64,000 nucleotides of DNA from a bacterium (GTDB taxonomy: Bacteria; Armatimonadota; Chthonomonadetes; Chthonomonadales; Chthonomonadaceae). The notes beneath the pieces are model-generated. The model was given only the letters and a program-made list of their open reading frames with translations, made no database searches and was not told where the DNA came from. A program made the position numbers and the translations under genes. The DNA lies in contig JAJYCW010000006.1 in NCBI GenBank assembly GCA_021777995.1, positions 1-64,000 on the forward strand, written 5' to 3'. Positions 24,666 to 38,965 of the stretch are shown here, one piece after another; the first letter of the stretch is position 1, and each line of letters opens with the position of its first letter.

Positions 24666-24768
24666 CGCTTAATCTCCCTTCACGGCGACAAAAACTCGTT
24701 CTGTACGCCATTCAGTTACCCGGTAATATTGCCGATTATCCCATTATGGCAGATGAGATGGTGTGTAC

Positions 24769-26511
24769 ATGACGGAAGACTATACTGGCTGTGTCAATGC
24801 GTTGCTGTCCCGTGCACGGTTACACCATGAAACCGAAGCAGTGATTAACGACACACTGACGGAAGCACTCAAGTTCACCTCCTCGTTACGTTCGTTTGTA
24901 GCCGGAATAGATCCTGCAACCGGCCTCATGGAGGTTATTGCAGCGCAGGGCAGAGATTGGTCTCCGCGAGAAAAAGATAACCGCCTTACCGTGCATAACG
25001 CCACACAGAGCGGTATTACAGCTCGAGCCGCTATCACAGCTAACACATATGTTGCACAGGACGTACGGACCGATCCGTACTACGTGTCGCATTTTAACGA
25101 TGTGCTAAGTGAGGCAGCACTGCCCATACTGGATGCGGAGGGCGTGGTACAAGCTGTCCTTAACGTTCAGAGCGGCACCGCGGCCTGGTACACTCCGGAG
25201 CGGGTCGCTAAATTGCAGATACTCGCAAATGTAATAGGTACGGCGCTTGTTACACAGACATTTGTTCAAAGGGAACGCGCCCTGGGACAGATTGGCCTCG
25301 AACTTGCCGCCGCTACCTCCAGGGAACATCTCACTCGCAAGGTTCTTGATCTGGTTGTATCGACCTTGCACTGTCAGGCATGCTCCTTGTTCCTCATGAA
25401 TGACTCACAAACACAACTCATATTGCATTCTGCTCGTGGTTCGCTCCAGGAGCAGGTGGGTGAGGCTGCATACGATGTGGGCGAGGGGTTGACGGGCACT
25501 GTAGCTCGAACGGGCAGGCCAATACGGCTGGAGGATCCACGGAAGGATTCACGATGGCTGGGCAGGTTCACTGAAATGACACCCGACGCAATGGGAGCAT
25601 TTTTAGCTGCGCCAGTTTATTTCCGTGAGCGCGTACTGGGAGTGTTGAGGGTTTCGCGTCCTAGGAATACGCCCAGCTGGTTTCAGGCGCGCTTCACAGA
25701 GAGCGATGAACGAATACTCTGCGCTACTGGAGCGCAGCTAGGTTCCGCGCTAGAGACCCTTAATGCTTTTGATGCTCGCTTAAAGAACGAGCGTATGGCA
25801 GCCTGGGGCGAGCTTTCTGCGAGGTCAGTGCACATGGTTGGCAACAAAACATTTGCAATTAAGGGCCATGTCAACGAAATCAAGCATCACGTACGAAACC
25901 TGCCAGACGAATGGCAGCAGCCTCTCTGCCAGCTTACCGACAGTATGGAGCAGAGTATATACCGCCTGGAAGACATCTTGACGGAATTCCGGGATTTTCT
26001 TACTGCAACGCAGTTAAATAAGCAGAGATGCTCCATTAACGATCTTCTTCACGAGGCGGCGCACGAATGCTTTCTCCACCACCAGAGTGTGCAACTGCGC
26101 GAACAATACTGCGACGATGCACCACTGGTTTTGGCGGATCCTGTACGTCTGAAGCGAGCGATAGGCGAATTGCTAGAAAATGCAGTCTCGTTCATGCCCC
26201 GAGGCGGCTGTGTTCAGCTGATGACAAACATCGGCTCTACCCAATCCATCGCAGAGCCAGAACAACCCAACAGCAAATTATCCGTTAGAGCGGAGATCGC
26301 GGATACTGGCGCTGGTGTACCCGCAGGCATTAAAGACCAGATTTTTCAACCATTTTATTCTACGAGATCACGAGGAATGGGCTTGGGCCTTTCCATAGTG
26401 AAAGGCGTAATAGAGGCCCACGGTGGCACCATACGAGAAATTGGTAAACCTGGTTTAGGGGCGGTATTTGAAATCGTATTACCGGTAACAACATTAGAGG
26501 AGACGAATTGA
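24769..26511 (+). CDS. Sensor histidine kinase with two GAF domains
   Basis: This 580-aa cytoplasmic kinase lacks membrane helices. The start is the ATG at 24769; a GTG two codons upstream is also open. GAF domain 1 covers about residues 25-160 (SSLRSFVAGIDPATGLMEVIA, ending VLNVQSG) and GAF domain 2 about 175-325 (CSLFLMNDS, VGEGLTGTVARTGRPIRLED, VLRVSR). The phospho-acceptor helix is near residue 350 (ARSVHMVGNKTFAIKGH), an NtrB-like form. The ATPase domain has the N box ELLENAVSF, DTGAGVP, FYSTRSRGMGLGLSIVKG. It starts three bases before the receiver gene, so the two form a two-component pair. The ligand of the GAF domains is unknown. Confidence 0.92.
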   Translation: MTEDYTGCVNALLSRARLHHETEAVINDTLTEALKFTSSLRSFVAGIDPATGLMEVIAAQGRDWSPREKDNRLTVHNATQSGITARAAITANTYVAQDVRTDPYYVSHFNDVLSEAALPILDAEGVVQAVLNVQSGTAAWYTPERVAKLQILANVIGTALVTQTFVQRERALGQIGLELAAATSREHLTRKVLDLVVSTLHCQACSLFLMNDSQTQLILHSARGSLQEQVGEAAYDVGEGLTGTVARTGRPIRLEDPRKDSRWLGRFTEMTPDAMGAFLAAPVYFRERVLGVLRVSRPRNTPSWFQARFTESDERILCATGAQLGSALETLNAFDARLKNERMAAWGELSARSVHMVGNKTFAIKGHVNEIKHHVRNLPDEWQQPLCQLTDSMEQSIYRLEDILTEFRDFLTATQLNKQRCSINDLLHEAAHECFLHHQSVQLREQYCDDAPLVLADPVRLKRAIGELLENAVSFMPRGGCVQLMTNIGSTQSIAEPEQPNSKLSVRAEIADTGAGVPAGIKDQIFQPFYSTRSRGMGLGLSIVKGVIEAHGGTIREIGKPGLGAVFEIVLPVTTLEETN

Positions 26512-26514
26512 CCC

Positions 26515-26949
26515 ATGGCCCGAATATTGGTGGTTGACGATGAACCCGACGTGCAAAACGCGCTTAAAAGGCGGCTTGAACGAGCAGGTCACTCGGTTCA
26601 CTGTGCAGGCTCCACAGATGTGGCGCTTACGATGCTGGTTGCCGGCGGGCCGGCATTTGAGGTTATCGTTACAGATATGTCCATGGAGCAGGAGAACAGC
26701 GGCGTCAAAATTCTAGAGGCGGCGCTGCTTCGCGACAGTTTCACAGCCGTAATCATTCTTACTGCCTATGGTAATGTTCGCAACGCTGTAACCTGTATGC
26801 AGATGGGTGCCTACGATTACGTTGAAAAGAACATTCCCGACGTAGACGTTTTTGAACTCATTACCTTAAAAGCCAACAGGGCAGCACAACAGGTTCGCGA
26901 GCGCAGGACGGGATCTGGCCCTGCGTTTAGAGTTGGCAGCGCCGCATGA
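26515..26949 (+). CDS. Stand-alone receiver-domain response regulator
   Basis: This 144-aa protein is a CheY-like receiver without an output domain. The acidic pocket is VVDDEPD (residues about 6-12), the phospho-acceptor Asp is in VIVTDMSME (about 54), the switch Thr is in ILTAYG and the Lys is in DYVEKN. It is probably translated with the adjacent histidine kinase and must pass its signal on by protein contact. A strong terminator follows directly. Confidence 0.92.
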   Translation: MARILVVDDEPDVQNALKRRLERAGHSVHCAGSTDVALTMLVAGGPAFEVIVTDMSMEQENSGVKILEAALLRDSFTAVIILTAYGNVRNAVTCMQMGAYDYVEKNIPDVDVFELITLKANRAAQQVRERRTGSGPAFRVGSAA

Positions 26950-30278: not shown

Positions 30279-31229
30279 ATGATTCTCACTGTAACACCAA
30301 ACCTCTGTATGGATAAGACCTACAAGATTCCCGGGTTCACCATTGACGTCGTTAATCGACCGTCATTAGTGCACACTATGGCGGGTGGTAAAGGGGTGAA
30401 TACGGCTCGCGCCTTTCGCACGCTTGGCGGCGATGCCGTAGTGACAGGGTTTGCGGGCGGGCTCACCGGCGCAACGTTAATCAACGCACTGCACAAGGAA
30501 GGGATGAATGCACAATGTGTTAAAGTGCAGGGCGAAACCCGCACGTGTATAGCAGTAATTAATCCCGATGACGGCACGCAGACCGAGATAAATGAAACCG
30601 GCCCACTTATCGTGGCCAGTGAAGCTGGAGAACTGTTAGAACAGTTCAAACGTCTAGTAACAAGGTATCCAATTAAGGTAATTGCCCTGTGTGGTAGCCT
30701 TCCACCTGGTACGCCGGTTGATTTGTACTCGCAGATGCAGGAGATCGCGAGGCAGCATTCGGTTCCCTGCGCCGTAGATACTAGCGGTGAACCTCTGACA
30801 TGTGCGGTTCAATCTGCGCCATGGCTCATCAAGCCCAATCGCAGGGAGGCTGAGTATTTGTTAGGCAAGGAACTAGGCTCCGAGTCTGACGTGCTTTGGG
30901 CTGCTCGCACATTACTGAGCAGGTTTGAGTGCCGATACGCATTGGTTTCGATGGGGCATATGGGTGCTATACTCGCCTGCGCGGAAGGTGCATGGCATGC
31001 CGCACCTCCCGTAATAGAGTTTGCCAGCGCTGTGGCGTCCGGTGACACAATGCTGGCAGCATTCCTGTGGTCGATACTTTATGCGGATTCCGAGGCAAAT
31101 CCTGTGCGTGCCCTGCGAATGGCAGTTGGTGCAGGAGCAGCAAACGCTAGTGTAATTGGAGCGGCAATATGCTCCAAAGAAAGCATGTTAGACTTGGCAG
31201 AACATGTCACCACGAGGCAACTGAATTGA
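30279..31229 (+). CDS. PfkB-family hexose-phosphate kinase (1-phosphofructokinase type)
   Basis: This 316-aa protein belongs to the FruK/LacC/PfkB group, which phosphorylates fructose-1-phosphate, fructose-6-phosphate or tagatose-6-phosphate with ATP. The N-terminal signature is MAGGKGVNTARAFRTLGG (residues about 33-50) and the C-terminal catalytic motif is ASAVASGDTMLAAFL with the base Asp (about 255). The LPPGTPVD and TSGEPL motifs are those of the hexose-phosphate kinase subgroup. No PTS transporter or fruR gene is near, so phosphofructokinase (glycolytic) use is as likely as fructose catabolism. It is followed 50 bases later by tatA. Confidence 0.88.
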   Translation: MILTVTPNLCMDKTYKIPGFTIDVVNRPSLVHTMAGGKGVNTARAFRTLGGDAVVTGFAGGLTGATLINALHKEGMNAQCVKVQGETRTCIAVINPDDGTQTEINETGPLIVASEAGELLEQFKRLVTRYPIKVIALCGSLPPGTPVDLYSQMQEIARQHSVPCAVDTSGEPLTCAVQSAPWLIKPNRREAEYLLGKELGSESDVLWAARTLLSRFECRYALVSMGHMGAILACAEGAWHAAPPVIEFASAVASGDTMLAAFLWSILYADSEANPVRALRMAVGAGAANASVIGAAICSKESMLDLAEHVTTRQLN

Positions 31230-31281: not shown

Positions 31282-31773
31282 ATGACGTTAATACCAGCCT
31301 TTTTAGACAGCCCGGTACAGTTACTCATTGCTGCAGTGGTCATTCTAGTTCTATTCGGGCCCGATAAGCTGCCTCAAATGCTGAAACAACTGGGTTCCGG
31401 TATACGAGAGTTCAAGAAGTACACATCCGAGCTGTCGAACTCGATCAAATTTGACGATGAGCCGACTTACAGCACTGGATATCAGCCACCACGCTACGAT
31501 GCGTACGGTAATCCGGTTGACACGCCAACTCCCGTTCCAAACACGCCTACCGCTATAACGTCGTCGCAACCTTCCAACTTTAGCGGCTCACGAACCAGCA
31601 ACTATTATGAACCAACGAGCGGGCCAATCGGTGACTTTGCATCGGCGGCTTTTGCCGGGGATGAAACAGTGCACCCACGGCCAGCACCAACACAAATGCC
31701 TGCTATTAAGCCCGCTGCAAACTCGGCCTCACAGCCAGTCGACGGCGCCGCCGAACACAACCAAAACAACTAG
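31282..31773 (+). CDS. tatA: TatA/TatB-type twin-arginine translocase subunit with long tail
   Basis: Single-span subunit of the Tat pathway, which exports folded proteins. The ATG at 31282 follows GGGAGA and is preferred to an upstream TTG. The membrane helix is at about residues 10-28 (VQLLIAAVVILVLFG) and the amphipathic helix with FGPDKLPQMLKQLGSGIREFKKY follows, the standard TatA form. The remaining ~110 residues are Pro/Ser/Thr-rich and likely disordered. At 163 aa it is longer than a typical TatA (about 60-90) and may be a TatB-like protein. No TatC gene is in the window. Confidence 0.85.
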   Translation: MTLIPAFLDSPVQLLIAAVVILVLFGPDKLPQMLKQLGSGIREFKKYTSELSNSIKFDDEPTYSTGYQPPRYDAYGNPVDTPTPVPNTPTAITSSQPSNFSGSRTSNYYEPTSGPIGDFASAAFAGDETVHPRPAPTQMPAIKPAANSASQPVDGAAEHNQNN

Positions 31774-32480: not shown

Positions 32481-35474
32481 ATGCAAGACCGTATTCCTTG
32501 CATTAAAACCGCAGCAGCAGCCAGCGTAGCCGCAGCATGTGTTGTAGGGCTTCTTTTTGTCCAGGCAATTCTAAGCCTCATCCCGATAGGCGGCCACCAT
32601 TCTATTGACCTAAGTGCGCCTCAGAGGAATGCTGTGCTGCAGCAACTGCAACATCTGCAAGACCGACATCACTACACGTCGGTACCGATGCTTGCACGGG
32701 CAGCAGTTAAGCGCCAACTGCTTACCGCAGATCAGGCTAGACGGCTCGCCCCACAGGCAGCCATCCGATCCAGGGGTAGCGCACTTAGTGCGGCTCTATA
32801 CTCGTTCGTCCCTGTGCTGTGTCTACTCTTGCTCTGGCCCGTTTACTTTGCCCGATCGCGAGCCGGACGTGGCGACCCGATGCTCGTGCCCATCGCACTT
32901 ACGTTATGCCTTTTGAATCTTGTTGACCTGCTATCCTTACGTAACCCTCTCAGCGACACTCCGCTCACAACTCACCAAACCGTCGGAATTCTGTTTGGAA
33001 TTTTTGTTTTCCTGTTACTCTCGCGCATGCCGGAAGCCCGTCGGCGATCACTACGACACTATCCGTACGTTTGGGGCCTCTCCGCGCTTGCAATATTTCT
33101 GATGCTACTCCTGTTCGGACATGGCCCTGGTGGCGTTAGGCTGGAATTAGGACCGCTGCAGCCTATTGAGATAGCAAAGTTACTTCTGGTTCTGTTTGCC
33201 GCGGCATACCTTACCGAAAGGGCCAATGTCGTATCCGAACGGCATAAGCAAAAGCGTCTCATAGGTAGCTGGTACGATCTTGCTCCGCTCCTGTTACTAT
33301 TCGGGCTGTCATTATTGCTTTTCTACATTTGTAGAGATATGGGTCCAGGGCTTTTGCTGTTTGCCGTGTTGGCCGCAATGATCACGATAACCACCGGCGA
33401 GCCGCAATTTGCAATAGTAGGCGCTGTACTCATTCTTACCGGCGGTATTTTGGGATATATTGCCCACGTTGGCGTTTTTCCAGTGAGAGTCGACATGTGG
33501 CTCCATCCGTTTAGCAACAGATATCCGCAGGGTATGCAGTTGGGTCAGGGACTGTGGGGATTTTCAAGCAGTGGGCTGCCGGGTAGTGGTTTTGGAATGG
33601 GATTGCCTATGACCATTCCCCGTGGGCAGGATGACCTGTCATTTGCATCGTGGGGTGAGCAGGGTGGCTGGATAGGTTCAGTGGCGGTATTAACACTATT
33701 TGCCATTCTGGTAGCCCGCAGTATGAAGATCGGTACGAATGCAGCCCATCCATTTGACCGCGCATTAGCATACGGTATTGGAATTCTTTTTGGAATGCAA
33801 ACCCTGCTTATTGTGGGGGGCGTTACAGGCATAATTCCGCTTACGGGCCTGTCACTCCCCTTTTTCAGTTATGGCGATAGTGCACTGCTTCTGGACTTTG
33901 CGGCACTTGGGCTTCTGCAGGGCATTTCTCAATCGACCGGGCAAGCGGCGCCCATCCATCAATCCGTATTGAAAGCCGCAAAGGTTTTCACCATTTCCTG
34001 CGCAGTGCTTCTGGTTGGCATTGTAGGCATTGTCAGACTAGGTGAAGTACAGGTTATCTCTAGTACCTCAATAGCTACAACGTCGATTAACACTCCGGAT
34101 AGAGATGGTGTTATACGCCCGCACGTCAACCCACGGCTGCTTATCATAGCCAATACGCTGAAACGGGCGAGTATCCTTGATCGCCAAGGTAAGGTGATAG
34201 CAGCATCTGTAGCGCAATCACCAAACACAAATGGCGCCCCGGTTCGTGAATACCCACTGGGCGCTTCCGCCGTTCAGGTCATTGGTTACTACAGCCGACT
34301 TACAGGAGCCGTAGGTGGTATCGAACAAAAATACGACTATCGGCTACGTGGATACTCCAGCCTCAAGGATCTACTGCCCTATTACCGCAACCGATTTATG
34401 CCCGGTGCCCGGCTTCCCCGTCCTCAAAATGTCCATAGTACCCTAAGCATCATAGTGCAGGAAGATGCTTATAAGGCACTTGTAGCAGCATGCCGTCGCG
34501 TACACAAAAGCAAGGGAGCACTCATCGTACTGAATGCGGACACCGGAGACGTACTTGCAGAGGTGTCGCTGCCCGCGCTTACACCAGGCCAGCTTGCAAC
34601 AGGAACCGGAGCGGGCCAAGTACTCGTTACAGGCGAGCACCCACTTGTCAATCGAGCAGTGGATGGGCGTTATCCACCTGGCTCCACGTTTAAGCTCGCA
34701 ACCGCAGCGTGTGCACTACAGGACACACCGCAGTCTGCTTCGCTTATCGTGCCGTGCAACCGCGCGGGGGTTGTACGATGGCAAGCCGGCGGCCAGTACT
34801 ACAGTCGCCTTATTCACGATGATATTCACGATCCTGCATTCGGCAGTATCGGAATGAATGAGGCATTTACCGTATCATCCAACATCTACTTTGCAACTCT
34901 TGCTACCAAAATTGGCGCGCGTACCTTTAGAGCGTTTCTCCAGGAGGGTCCATTCGCCCGCGTTCCGACACTTTCCGCCTTTAGGGCCGAGCTAGCAGAT
35001 ATTGGCTACGGACAGGGTGAATTAGAGGTTTCACCCATGCAGATGGCACTACTGGCAGGCGCAGTGGCCAATGGAGGAGTGCTGCAGAAGCCTCGTATTG
35101 TAATTCAGACAGGCAAAATGACGGCGGCAGAGCAGTACTCGGAAACATCTTTAACCGGCGGACACCAGTGGTTTTCACAGCAGGTTGCCCAGGCGGTTCG
35201 TCAAATGATGGTAGACGTTGCGTCACGAGGGACAGCAGCCGGCCTGTTCAATGGCTTATCTGGACCAATTGGTGCAAAAACAGGTACGGCGCAGGTAGGT
35301 CCTGCACACCCGCCCCACTCATGGTTTGTCGGTTACGCGCACGTATCCGCCCTGCCCACGATACGGCGCATAGCGTTTGCATGCATTATTGAGCACGGTG
35401 GGTACGGCCGCACCGGCGCAGGTGAAGCATGCGCAGCGATGGTGAGACATCTGGATGGCGGTACGGCAAACTAG
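32481..35474 (+). CDS. Fusion of SEDS glycan polymerase (FtsW/RodA) and class B penicillin-binding protein
   Basis: This 997-aa protein carries both halves of a peptidoglycan synthase in one chain. Residues about 10-30 form a first helix, followed by a ~70-residue extracytoplasmic loop. Residues about 100-490 are the SEDS module with ten or so helices; the catalytic Asp is in GQDDLSFASWGEQGG near residue 384, and the C-terminal signature is TGLSLPFFSYGDSALL. Residues about 530-620 are a short pedestal like PbpA (VREYPLGASAVQVIGYYS, GGIEQKYDYRLRGY). The transpeptidase domain has STFK (S735), SSN (799-801) and KTG (K933). SEDS proteins polymerise lipid II and bPBPs cross-link it; they normally are separate partners. 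The in-frame stop three codons upstream fixes the ATG. Whether it serves division or elongation is unclear. Confidence 0.92.
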   Translation: MQDRIPCIKTAAAASVAAACVVGLLFVQAILSLIPIGGHHSIDLSAPQRNAVLQQLQHLQDRHHYTSVPMLARAAVKRQLLTADQARRLAPQAAIRSRGSALSAALYSFVPVLCLLLLWPVYFARSRAGRGDPMLVPIALTLCLLNLVDLLSLRNPLSDTPLTTHQTVGILFGIFVFLLLSRMPEARRRSLRHYPYVWGLSALAIFLMLLLFGHGPGGVRLELGPLQPIEIAKLLLVLFAAAYLTERANVVSERHKQKRLIGSWYDLAPLLLLFGLSLLLFYICRDMGPGLLLFAVLAAMITITTGEPQFAIVGAVLILTGGILGYIAHVGVFPVRVDMWLHPFSNRYPQGMQLGQGLWGFSSSGLPGSGFGMGLPMTIPRGQDDLSFASWGEQGGWIGSVAVLTLFAILVARSMKIGTNAAHPFDRALAYGIGILFGMQTLLIVGGVTGIIPLTGLSLPFFSYGDSALLLDFAALGLLQGISQSTGQAAPIHQSVLKAAKVFTISCAVLLVGIVGIVRLGEVQVISSTSIATTSINTPDRDGVIRPHVNPRLLIIANTLKRASILDRQGKVIAASVAQSPNTNGAPVREYPLGASAVQVIGYYSRLTGAVGGIEQKYDYRLRGYSSLKDLLPYYRNRFMPGARLPRPQNVHSTLSIIVQEDAYKALVAACRRVHKSKGALIVLNADTGDVLAEVSLPALTPGQLATGTGAGQVLVTGEHPLVNRAVDGRYPPGSTFKLATAACALQDTPQSASLIVPCNRAGVVRWQAGGQYYSRLIHDDIHDPAFGSIGMNEAFTVSSNIYFATLATKIGARTFRAFLQEGPFARVPTLSAFRAELADIGYGQGELEVSPMQMALLAGAVANGGVLQKPRIVIQTGKMTAAEQYSETSLTGGHQWFSQQVAQAVRQMMVDVASRGTAAGLFNGLSGPIGAKTGTAQVGPAHPPHSWFVGYAHVSALPTIRRIAFACIIEHGGYGRTGAGEACAAMVRHLDGGTAN

Positions 35475-35587: not shown

Positions 35588-36817
35588 TTACGCTGCGATT
35601 TGCGTGAGTTCGATATCAAGTGCCTCAATAAGGCGCGTACACTGCTCGCGCGTTATGACAAGCGGCGGAACCAGGCGAATGATTGAATCACCCACGGCAT
35701 TTGCAATGATAAATCGCTTAAACAGTCCGGCGAGTAGCTGCTTTGCAACAGGCTTTGTAAACTCCACGCCTACCATAAGCCCAATGCCCCTCACCTCGTT
35801 TACAAGATGCGAATGGCGTGAGGCGATGCTCTTTAGACCGTCCACAAGAAAGGCTCCAACTTCCTCGGCATTTTGCATTAGCCCTTCGTCTTCTAAAACG
35901 TCCAGGGTTGCCAATGCTGCCGCACAGGCCAATGGCTGACCAGCAAACGTTGAACCATGATCACCTGGTACCAGGGTATTAGCCGCTTCACCAGATGCCA
36001 AACATGCGCCCATGGGGAAACCATCCGCAATGCCCTTGGCCATCGTGATAACGTCACCTTTTACACCAAACTGGTGGCTACCCAGGAAGCAGCCCGTTCG
36101 GCCCGTTCCGCACTGCACCTCATCAAGGATGAGCAGCACCTCAGCTTCGTCGCACAACGCACGTACCGCTTTCAAAAACGCTGGTAAAACGGGCCGCACC
36201 CCAGACTCACCCTGAATTGGTTCTACCATGACAGCACATGTCCGTTCAGAGATAAGGTTGTCCAGAGCCGTCAAATCGTTAAGTTTGGTATAGATGAAGC
36301 CCAGTGGCATCGGCGCAAATGCTTCCTGGTATTTTGGCTGCGCAGTTGCTGCAAGTGCACCTAGAGTTCGACCGTGAAAACTTCCTTCAAAGGTAATAAT
36401 CTCATAGCAATCTGGACCTCGCAATTGTTTGCCGCGTTTTCGGGCAAGCTTTATGGCACATTCATTTGCCTCAGCACCAGAATTACAGAAGAACACCTTG
36501 TCCATGCCGGTAAGTCCACACAACCGGGCAGCTAGCTGAGCCTGCAGTGCGTTATGAAACAGGTTACTCACATGCATAAGGGTGTGAGCCTGTTTGCTAA
36601 TTGCCTCCGCAATTTTGGGGTGGCAGTGCCCCACCTGTGTGACAGCAATCCCTGCGAGGAAGTCGAGGTATTCGTTCCCCTCGCTGTCCCATAGCCTCGC
36701 CCCATCGCCCTTCACAAACACCATTGGCTGGCGTATATAGGTGCCCATTACAAACTGCTTGTCCTGCGCGTGTATCGCCGCTACATCAATAGGCGCTCCG
36801 TCGGCATCGATGCCCAT
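35588..36817 (-). CDS. argD: Acetylornithine aminotransferase ArgD
   Basis: ArgD is a PLP-dependent class III aminotransferase that converts N-acetylglutamate semialdehyde to N-acetylornithine. The protein of 409 aa has the family sequence LDFLAGIAVTQVGHCHP (about residue 30), the substrate/PLP block FCNSGAEANECAIKLARK, the PLP phosphate region FEGSFHGRTLGA, LILDEVQCGTGRTG and the Schiff-base lysine in TMAKGIADGFPMG. The ATG at 36817 has AAGGA upstream; a longer frame to 36856 is less likely. It is the last gene of argJ-argB-argD. Confidence 0.95.
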   Translation of the reverse strand: MGIDADGAPIDVAAIHAQDKQFVMGTYIRQPMVFVKGDGARLWDSEGNEYLDFLAGIAVTQVGHCHPKIAEAISKQAHTLMHVSNLFHNALQAQLAARLCGLTGMDKVFFCNSGAEANECAIKLARKRGKQLRGPDCYEIITFEGSFHGRTLGALAATAQPKYQEAFAPMPLGFIYTKLNDLTALDNLISERTCAVMVEPIQGESGVRPVLPAFLKAVRALCDEAEVLLILDEVQCGTGRTGCFLGSHQFGVKGDVITMAKGIADGFPMGACLASGEAANTLVPGDHGSTFAGQPLACAAALATLDVLEDEGLMQNAEEVGAFLVDGLKSIASRHSHLVNEVRGIGLMVGVEFTKPVAKQLLAGLFKRFIIANAVGDSIIRLVPPLVITREQCTRLIEALDIELTQIAA

Positions 36818-36856
36818 ATTTATCGTCCTTCTACTATCGCAAGTTGTATGGCACAA

Positions 36857-37726
36857 CTATGCGTAAACCATTGTACCTATTCCAGAATCCGTAAAAATTT
36901 CTATCAAAAGGGAGTGTGGTACCCGGCCGTCGATGAGGTGCGCCCGCTCCACCCCTCCTTCTATGGCAGTAATGCAGGCCTCAAGCTTTGGAATCATTCC
37001 GTGGTCGGCTTTGCCAGATTTGATCATTTCGTCTGCTCGTTGAATAGTCATTCGGTTTATGAGGCTAGCCTTATCTGGGTAATCTGCATACAACCCTTCC
37101 ACGTCCGTAAGCAACACCAGTTTTGCCGCCCCCACCGCCGACGCGATGTGGCCAGCAACGTGATCAGCATTCACGTTGTAGCTATTGCCATCTGGTCCAA
37201 TTGCTATCGACGAAACAACCGGTATATAAGACTGTTCCACCAGTAGGGAGAGAATGGCAGGGTTAACCTGTGCGACCTCGCCTACAAATCCCAAATCACC
37301 TTTGGTAGAGTGCATTTTACACGCTACGATCATGTTGGCGTCTTTGCCGCTCAATCCAACTGCTCGCGCTCCCTGCCTGTTCAAAAGGGACACGATATTC
37401 TTGTTTGTCTTGCCCGCCAATACCATCTCTACAATTTCCATCGTGGCGGCATCGGTAACCCTAAGACCGCCTACAAATGTAGGCTCTATGCCCACCTGCT
37501 TCATCATTGCGTTGATATCGGGGCCGCCTCCATGCACAAGGATTACATGAATGCCGACATAGTGCAGCAAGGCCACGTCCTGCATGACCTGCGACTTTAG
37601 AGTGTCGTCTATCATGGCGTTTCCACCGTATTTTACAACTATGGTCTTTCCGTAAAACTGGCGCAGATATGGCAGGGCCTCAATAAGAACCGCTGCCGAG
37701 GTTTCTGACGAAATTGGGATGTTCAT
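36857..37726 (-). CDS. argB: Acetylglutamate kinase ArgB
   Basis: ArgB phosphorylates N-acetylglutamate with ATP in the second step of arginine synthesis. The 289-aa protein shows VKYGGNAM (about residue 34), LVHGGGPDINAMMKQ, RVTDAATMEIVEMVLAG, NADHVAGHIA and the LIDGRVPHSLLIEIFTDSGIGTM C-terminus. It carries an N-terminal helix of about 20 residues before the first strand (AVLIEALPYLRQFYGK), which is typical of hexameric, arginine-inhibited kinases and absent from the E. coli type. Feedback control by arginine is therefore likely. It lies between argJ (18 bases) and argD (39 bases). Confidence 0.96.
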   Translation of the reverse strand: MNIPISSETSAAVLIEALPYLRQFYGKTIVVKYGGNAMIDDTLKSQVMQDVALLHYVGIHVILVHGGGPDINAMMKQVGIEPTFVGGLRVTDAATMEIVEMVLAGKTNKNIVSLLNRQGARAVGLSGKDANMIVACKMHSTKGDLGFVGEVAQVNPAILSLLVEQSYIPVVSSIAIGPDGNSYNVNADHVAGHIASAVGAAKLVLLTDVEGLYADYPDKASLINRMTIQRADEMIKSGKADHGMIPKLEACITAIEGGVERAHLIDGRVPHSLLIEIFTDSGIGTMVYA

Positions 37727-37744
37727 TCGCTAGTCCAAGCCTTA

Positions 37745-38965
37745 TCAGGTATGATATTCGGCGTTAATTTTAATGTAGTCGTAACTATAGTCACATGTCC
37801 ACACTGTATCTGCAAACTCACCCATACCTGCGTCGAGTGTAAGGACAATTTCTCTGTTTGTAAGGTATTCGTGCGCGGTATCACGATCGAAATCTACACC
37901 GGTTCCTGCTTGAAAAACCACTATTTCGCCAACGGACAACGTGGCATGCTCGGGATCAAACGGAACCATCGCGCGGCCTGCGGCCATCAAAACACGGCCC
38001 CAATTGGGATCGCAGCCGTACAGTGCCGTCTTTACCAACGGGGACTCTGCGATGGTGCGCGCTATGGAATGTGCAGCGGCCGAGGAAACTGCTCCTTTAA
38101 CCCGTACTTCAACCAGTTTTGTCGCGCCCTCGCCATCCCGTGCTAGTTCCTTTGCAAGTGAGCGGCATAGACGGGTAAGTGCCTCTACAAAGTCTTCAAA
38201 GGCTTCGCCTGCACGCGAAATCTCGCCATTGCCCATTCCACTCGCAAGAATAACACACATATCGTTGGTAGAGGTGTCACCGTCCACCGTAACGCGATTG
38301 AACGATGAGTCACAAGCACGGCGTAGCGCTTCCTGAAGAAGCGAGGGAGGTATACGGGCGTCTGTAGTGACGAACGCCAACATCGTCGCCATATTAGGTG
38401 CAATCATACCGGCGCCCTTGCACATTCCACCTAGACGGATGGGTGCAACCCATCCGTCTGCGTCTACTTCAGCGGCCCTATACTTGGGGTAAGTATCAGT
38501 AGTCATGATGGCACGGGCCGCCGCGGTATCAACGGTTAGCCCAGATTCCAGCGAATTGATGGCAAGTTCAACACCCTGCCGTATGTTGTCCATCGGCAGC
38601 AAATGCCCAATTACACCGGTGGAGGCGGTTAGTACCCTGTCTGGTGGAACGCGCAGGTGGCGTGAAACCCAGTCAGCCATGGTGCGGTTGTCAGTGTCCC
38701 CTTGCTCGCCGTTACAGGTGTTGGCGTTGCCTGCGTTGATGACCACAGCTTGTGCCGCACCACCCCGTACAACTCGGCGCGAGTAGCGAACGCACGCTCC
38801 CTGCACCTTATTTGTGGTGAACAAACCCGCAACAGAGGCCTCGCTCTCGCTTACAATCAATGCGAAGTCCTCTCCGGATGTCTTAAGTCCACACCTTACG
38901 CCTGCCGCGGCGAAACCCTCGGGGAAAGTTACTCCGGCTTCCACTTCGCGCCAACTCGTAATCAC
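37745..38965 (-). CDS. argJ: Bifunctional ornithine acetyltransferase/N-acetylglutamate synthase ArgJ
   Basis: ArgJ recycles the acetyl group from N-acetylornithine to glutamate; some forms also use acetyl-CoA. The precursor of 406 aa cleaves itself at the conserved Thr in GMIAPNMATMLAF (near residue 190). Other family motifs are GFAAAGVRCGLK, VVINAGNANTCNG, STGVIG and GDTSTNDMC. The start is GTG at 38965 with GGAGA eight bases upstream. It is the first gene of the arginine run and no argC is present in the window. The order argJ-argB-argD indicates the cyclic acetyl pathway. Confidence 0.95.
   Translation of the reverse strand: MITSWREVEAGVTFPEGFAAAGVRCGLKTSGEDFALIVSESEASVAGLFTTNKVQGACVRYSRRVVRGGAAQAVVINAGNANTCNGEQGDTDNRTMADWVSRHLRVPPDRVLTASTGVIGHLLPMDNIRQGVELAINSLESGLTVDTAAARAIMTTDTYPKYRAAEVDADGWVAPIRLGGMCKGAGMIAPNMATMLAFVTTDARIPPSLLQEALRRACDSSFNRVTVDGDTSTNDMCVILASGMGNGEISRAGEAFEDFVEALTRLCRSLAKELARDGEGATKLVEVRVKGAVSSAAAHSIARTIAESPLVKTALYGCDPNWGRVLMAAGRAMVPFDPEHATLSVGEIVVFQAGTGVDFDRDTAHEYLTNREIVLTLDAGMGEFADTVWTCDYSYDYIKINAEYHT

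Follow-up and report, generated by a model that had tools for sequence, protein, structure and literature searches.

The gene at 32481–35474 (+ strand) of the window, the 64,000-nucleotide stretch of DNA that was analysed, joins a SEDS polymerase and a class B penicillin-binding protein (PBP) in a single chain. The fusion is real and is common to much of the little-studied phylum Armatimonadota. Judging from sequence comparisons, the fused protein is a member of a third SEDS–class B PBP lineage, that of the PbpA/RodA pair. We propose, with a probability of about 0.78, that it is a bifunctional, obligatorily coupled accessory peptidoglycan synthase, in which a polymerase of the PbpA-associated SEDS lineage is tethered to its cognate class B transpeptidase.

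The SEDS and PBP halves share one reading frame

The open reading frame comprises 997 codons and contains no internal stop. An in-frame TAA is located two codons 5' of the ATG, so the start cannot lie further upstream. The gene and the features discussed below are as follows.

30279–31229, + strand: PfkB-family kinase of cluster C3, conserved upstream of the fused gene in families f1 and f3 (neighbourhood comparison)
31282–31773, + strand: TatA/Hcf106-like protein of cluster C4, likewise conserved upstream in f1 and f3 (neighbourhood comparison)
32481–35474, + strand: SEDS–class B PBP fusion, 997 amino acids, stop codon at 35472–35474 (open reading frame, Pfam)
32493–32588, + strand: extra transmembrane (TM) helix A, about residues 5–36, with a cytoplasmic N-terminus in the inferred topology (hydropathy; helix 5–31 in the AlphaFold2 model, modest confidence)
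32592–32771, + strand: extracytoplasmic loop, residues 38–97, without a Pfam match in the window protein (Pfam, own profile, hhalign)
32772–32855, + strand: extra TM helix B, residues 98–125 (hydropathy, AlphaFold2 model)
32874–33938, + strand: SEDS core of 10 TM helices, residues 132–486 (Pfam, hydropathy, alignment, AlphaFold2 model)
33633–33635, + strand: SEDS catalytic-loop aspartate D385, in QDDLSF (alignments)
33939–33959, + strand: short cytoplasmic linker from SEDS TM10 to the PBP TM helix, residues 487–493 (family alignment, AlphaFold2 model)
33960–34055, + strand: PBP membrane anchor, residues 494–525 (hydropathy, AlphaFold2 model)
34164–34358, + strand: PBP_dimer_2, the PbpA-type dimerisation or pedestal domain, residues 562–626 (Pfam)
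34515–35417, + strand: transpeptidase domain, residues 679–979 (Pfam, structure matches)
34683–34694, + strand: SxxK motif, S735-T-F-K738 (sequence, alignments)
34875–34883, + strand: SxN motif, S799-S-N801 (sequence, alignments)
35277–35285, + strand: KTG motif, K933-T-G935 (sequence, alignments)

The N-terminal half is assigned to the SEDS family by its match to FTSW_RODA_SPOVE (PF01098; 158.2 bits, cut-off 26.4, residues 162–486), by the ten-helix core that follows two extra helices, and by the aspartate of the catalytic loop. The second aspartate of QDDLSF, D385, aligns with the loop aspartate of Thermus thermophilus RodA (RHTDFVF) and with the corresponding residue of FtsW, in surroundings that differ from the usual motif (DDLSF in place of TDFIF). 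The C-terminal half is a class B PBP with a Transpeptidase domain (135.2 bits, above the curated cut-off) that carries the SxxK, SxN, and KTG motifs. All three are invariant in an alignment of eight family proteins, and their positions coincide with those of Mycobacterium tuberculosis PbpA. Hydropathy and an AlphaFold2 model of moderate quality (pLDDT 61.8, pTM 0.47) agree on the order of TM helices: two extra, ten SEDS, and one PBP. The preliminary description had read the SEDS aspartate and the STFK, SSN, and KTG motifs in one frame of 997 codons, which the open reading frame, Pfam, and the alignments bear out.

Both domains lie in one uninterrupted frame that is conserved among relatives. 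A genus-mate (G002) encodes the same single frame with 75% protein identity, and the arrangement recurs throughout the family of the window genome and in other families of the phylum; those relatives that bear names belong to the Chthonomonadaceae. Re-reading of the DNA identified both halves within one stop-to-stop frame at 40 distinct representative loci, with protein identities of 27–75%, from several families and independently assembled genomes. Apparent frames of 900–1003 amino acids in five more genomes of mixed genera (G262, G255, G289, G290, and G043) were resolved by re-reading into separate open reading frames and were not counted. Purifying selection spans the SEDS–PBP junction. In the comparison of the window genome with G002, pN is far below pS in every segment: pN/pS is 0.102/0.813 in the SEDS part, 0.225/0.689 in the linker and PBP anchor, 0.175/0.765 in the transpeptidase domain, and 0.345/0.782 in the N-terminal loop, the least constrained segment.

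These data bear on the explanation that a sequencing or assembly error joined two adjacent genes. At five loci of split orthologues (L085, L086, L087, L090, and L092), a single stop parts the SEDS and PBP genes, the PBP following directly in the same frame, and one base change would turn such a pair into an apparent fusion. However, the same frame is present in independent assemblies of divergent families, including a one-contig genome of 3.4 Mb (G003), and pN is low relative to pS over the linker. The error reading, which the preliminary description had named as what would overturn it, is therefore refuted for practical purposes. The separate homologues with a stop between the genes, mentioned there as a sign of such an error, do exist; they belong to other families, have an ancestral-looking form, and show no error in the window.

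Lineage and gene neighbourhood of the fused protein

The window protein scores below the trusted cut-offs of the equivalog models of RodA (TIGR02210, 137.1 versus 336.7), PBP2 (TIGR03423, 180.5 versus 455), and FtsW (TIGR02614, 157.9 versus 337.5). The window genome contains three SEDS genes and four transpeptidase genes, each count including the fused gene. The other two SEDS genes encode RodA (TIGR02210, 370.2 over the cut-off of 336.7) and an FtsW-like protein; the other three transpeptidase genes encode PBP2 (TIGR03423, 567.3 over 455), an FtsI/SpoVD-like protein, and the class A PBP PBP1A. The FtsW-like and FtsI/SpoVD-like proteins are encoded in a mur cluster, and MreB is also present. 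The sub-cut-off scores, the trees of both halves, and the canonical genes elsewhere in the genome rule out a fusion of RodA with PBP2 or of FtsW with FtsI.

Quick trees of each half, which contain long branches, place the fused proteins apart from canonical RodA/FtsW and PBP2/FtsI. The separate orthologues occur in other families of the phylum, such as f11, f42, f43, and f45, and most of them group near the RodA–PbpA pairs of Nocardia and Tsukamurella. In the PBP tree, the pair from Monoglobus (Clostridia) joins the RodA–PbpA group, whereas in the SEDS tree it branches at the base of the canonical proteins. Assignment of the PBP half to the PbpA subfamily is based on the PBP tree, a marginal match to PBP_dimer_2 (PF21922; 28.3 bits, cut-off 27, residues 562–626), and its nearest solved structures, which are of the PbpA type (PDB: 3lo7, 3un7, 4mnr from Eggerthella, and 4jbf from Atopobium). 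The preliminary description had viewed the protein against the RodA–PBP2 and FtsW–FtsI pairs and proposed looking for separate rodA, ftsW, and ftsI genes and at the phylogeny of each half. It was right about a natural single chain of SEDS and class B PBP, which is a fusion of neither pair; all three genes, as well as that of PBP2, are present elsewhere in the genome, and the phylogeny points to a third lineage together with actinobacterial RodA–PbpA.

A core clade of fused proteins, which excludes the outlying sequences L095, L096, L103, and L113, has a weak support of 72 in the SEDS tree; it is not present in the best PBP tree, where it is not rejected (p-AU 0.488). Two independent origins of the fusion, one in the core clade and one in f39/f40, look likely from the tree topologies, but the AU tests do not reject a single one (p-AU 0.101 and 0.125).

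The RodA–PbpA pair of Actinomycetota, encoded in an FHA-FHA-PP2C-rodA-pbpA-pknA-pknB locus, belongs to the same SEDS and PBP lineages as the window fusion and shares with it the PbpA-type pedestal (PF21922) and the two additional TM helices that precede the SEDS core at the N-terminus. The actinobacterial proteins are encoded by separate genes, which overlap by 4 bp in Tsukamurella and Nocardia, and have a short first loop, whereas the window protein is a single chain with an enlarged loop. Split orthologues usually have the gene order FHA genes, SEDS, PBP, and PknB with PASTA domains; the actinobacterial locus has the same layout, and that of Monoglobus contains FHA, SEDS, and PBP genes. FHA, PP2C, or PknB genes, the neighbours of the actinobacterial pair, also adjoin several fused genes (f8, f7, and f40): in f8 (L065), FhaA, PP2C, and a kinase come after the fused gene, and in f40 (L095), a PASTA kinase adjoins it. 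The fused genes of f3 and of most of the window's family are instead positioned behind pfkB and tatA. Unlike actinobacterial rodA-pbpA, the window fusion is unlinked from the kinase locus, and the FhaA and PP2C genes of its genome are located together on another contig (C144).

Overlaps of 4 bp (ATGA) or 14 bp are frequent between the split SEDS and PBP genes, as are shared frames with a single stop in between, and fusion thus needs only a small change. Among the annotated matches examined in plasmid records, only separate SEDS and PBP genes were found, and none reached 80% coverage. Judging from the sequence alone, a GAF/histidine-kinase-like protein followed in tandem by a response regulator elsewhere in the window (24763–26949) is probably an ordinary two-component pair. 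On the same basis, the argD-, argB-, and argJ-like genes that face the fused gene in convergent orientation (35588–38965, − strand) are probably an ordinary arginine biosynthesis cluster.

According to PMC10449877, which cites the Rhodococcus RHA1 genome, natural SEDS–PBP fusions in one open reading frame exist. As a kind, according to that source, they are already known, which answers whether similar fusions had been catalogued. As described there, the Rhodococcus fusion likewise has SEDS followed by a class B PBP; compared by description only, the window family differs from it in phylum, in its family-wide conservation, and in its enlarged or helix-hairpin-helix (HhH)-bearing N-terminal loop.

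The N-terminal helices and their loop

The two extra helices, missed together with the loop between them in the preliminary account of the architecture, which was otherwise correct about the fusion, are also present in split and actinobacterial relatives, where hydropathy indicates a short connecting loop. Members of the core fused clade have a long loop, and in most fused relatives one or two HhH (HHH_3, PF12836) repeats occupy it. All nine relatives scanned individually contain HHH_3 above the cut-off (27.5–70.6 bits), and in scans of sequence sets it was detected at E ≤ 0.01 in 26 of 40 fused N-termini and in none of 31 separate ones. A profile built from the loop stretches of ten relatives identified HhH in all sampled members of f3, f8, f17, and f18 and in 10 of 13 members of f1; it found none in f6, f7, f9, f30, f39, f40, the window's genus, or G012. 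The structure predicted for the HhH loop of one relative (pLDDT 58.5) gave no significant match in a fold search; given this low-confidence model and empty search, the HhH assignment rests on the Pfam profiles.

The Pfam scan detected no PF12836 in the loop of the window protein. This loop aligns with the C-terminal half of the relatives' loops over 45 columns (hhalign E 0.003, at a probability of only 10). From this alignment, we read it as a shortened relic of the HhH-holding position, with the HhH probably reduced in the window's genus. With its reduced loop, the window protein is in itself a plain fusion.

The relatives' loops match the HhH of ComEA and of type II secretion system protein K (PF12836, PF03934), with up to 70.6 bits for HHH_3. 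In contrast to those proteins, the HhH is here inserted between two TM helices of a SEDS–PBP synthase, and is unrecognisable in the window protein. ComEA uses its HhH domain to bind DNA on the outside of the membrane. By analogy, DNA, a wall glycan, or a protein partner are candidate ligands of the loop. The combination of extra N-terminal TM helices with a ComEA-type HhH in an extracytoplasmic loop is apparently new: we found no description of a SEDS protein with an HhH domain, or of this clade, in the literature searched, whose partial coverage makes this weak evidence. One of the 40 fused N-termini matches TonB_C (3.6e-10), which by inspection is probably the loop of L103 (G041). The loop of L113, a second copy in G036, is possibly similar to it, with this other domain in the HhH slot.

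Proposed function and alternatives

SEDS proteins polymerise lipid II, and their full activity requires the cognate class B PBP. We infer enzymatic activity and an accessory role for the fused protein, and the function of the HhH domain, from the features described above. In this model, D385 is the essential acid with which the SEDS part would polymerise lipid II at the external side of the membrane. Packing of the PBP anchor beside SEDS is expected to resemble that in RodA–PBP2, the pedestal would pass on activation, and the tethered transpeptidase would cross-link the nascent strand through S735. The fusion would impose obligatory assembly and 1:1 stoichiometry, and the protein would act as a third, accessory synthase alongside the separate RodA–PBP2 and FtsW–FtsI pairs. 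The HhH between the two extra helices would be displayed outside in most fused relatives and is probably a docking or regulatory module. Since the SEDS part has its C-terminal end in the cytoplasm and the PBP anchor runs outward from there, the transpeptidase is placed outside without an added helix, and the topology therefore supports both steps in cis. Engineered fusions of SEDS with class B PBPs are functional (PMC6207328, PMC10449877).

The catalytic chemistry and the expected TM packing are those of the RodA–PBP2 and FtsW–FtsI complexes (PDB 6pl5, 8tj3, and 8bh1 were matched), which are composed of separate polypeptides from different clades and are also encoded in the window genome. A class A PBP likewise combines polymerase and transpeptidase in one chain; its GT51 polymerase is unrelated to SEDS, and no GT51 transglycosylase domain is among the Pfam matches of the window protein. 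The resemblance to a bifunctional class A PBP of different origin, pointed out in the preliminary description, thus holds as an analogy of layout.

The retention of catalytic motifs in both halves and the conservation of the gene in most of the window's family would also fit a main synthase that has replaced the RodA–PBP2 pair in elongation or the FtsW–FtsI pair in division. We consider this improbable, because separate RodA, PBP2, FtsW-like, FtsI-like, and PBP1A genes are present in the same genome, and three near-complete order-mates (G022, G023, and G026; genus g16, f3) contain no match to the fused gene at E ≤ 1e-36. The gene is therefore dispensable or was lost in g16. It is slightly less probable still that the fused protein has lost one or both activities and serves a regulatory or structural role. 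Three fused relatives, L100 (G021), L101 (G024), and L102 (G020) of f3, lack the SEDS aspartate and/or residues of the SxxK, SxN, and KTG motifs, keep the architecture and the HhH loop, and are likely pseudoenzymes judging from these substitutions; because of such losses, not every fused member is an active synthase. The window protein, however, retains D385 and the three PBP motifs, which are invariant in the eight-protein alignment. We give similarly little weight to the idea that the chain is translated as a fusion and acts for the most part as two proteins, produced by internal initiation or by cleavage of the linker; part of an engineered RodA–PBP2 fusion was cleaved in its linker (PMC6207328). 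The natural linker is short, with about 7–10 residues between the predicted helices, and several families share the one-frame arrangement, both of which favour the coupled synthase.

Artificial fusions have served to study the coupling and activation of SEDS proteins and class B PBPs, which is still an unsettled question. A natural family with fixed coupling, whose relatives are split by as little as one in-frame stop, offers a test system that already exists, and its sequences, aligned across the phylum, lend themselves to coevolution analysis of the SEDS–PBP interface in cis. The HhH insertion suggests that wall synthesis receives an extracytoplasmic input not recognised so far. More tentatively, and with greater doubt than belief, the fused proteins might constitute an undescribed class of self-contained synthases, in which a built-in extracytoplasmic HhH (ComEA-like) or other module (for example TonB_C) ties wall synthesis to an extracellular ligand such as DNA, a glycan, or a protein partner, and replaces the PASTA-kinase/FHA control of the split ancestors.

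Among the split relatives, the PBPs of L091 and L114 (f45) and L106 (f38) lack the SxxK and KTG residues (PPGTVLQ, RPGAALQ). The SEDS genes beside them keep the aspartate, and the transpeptidases are apparently inactive.
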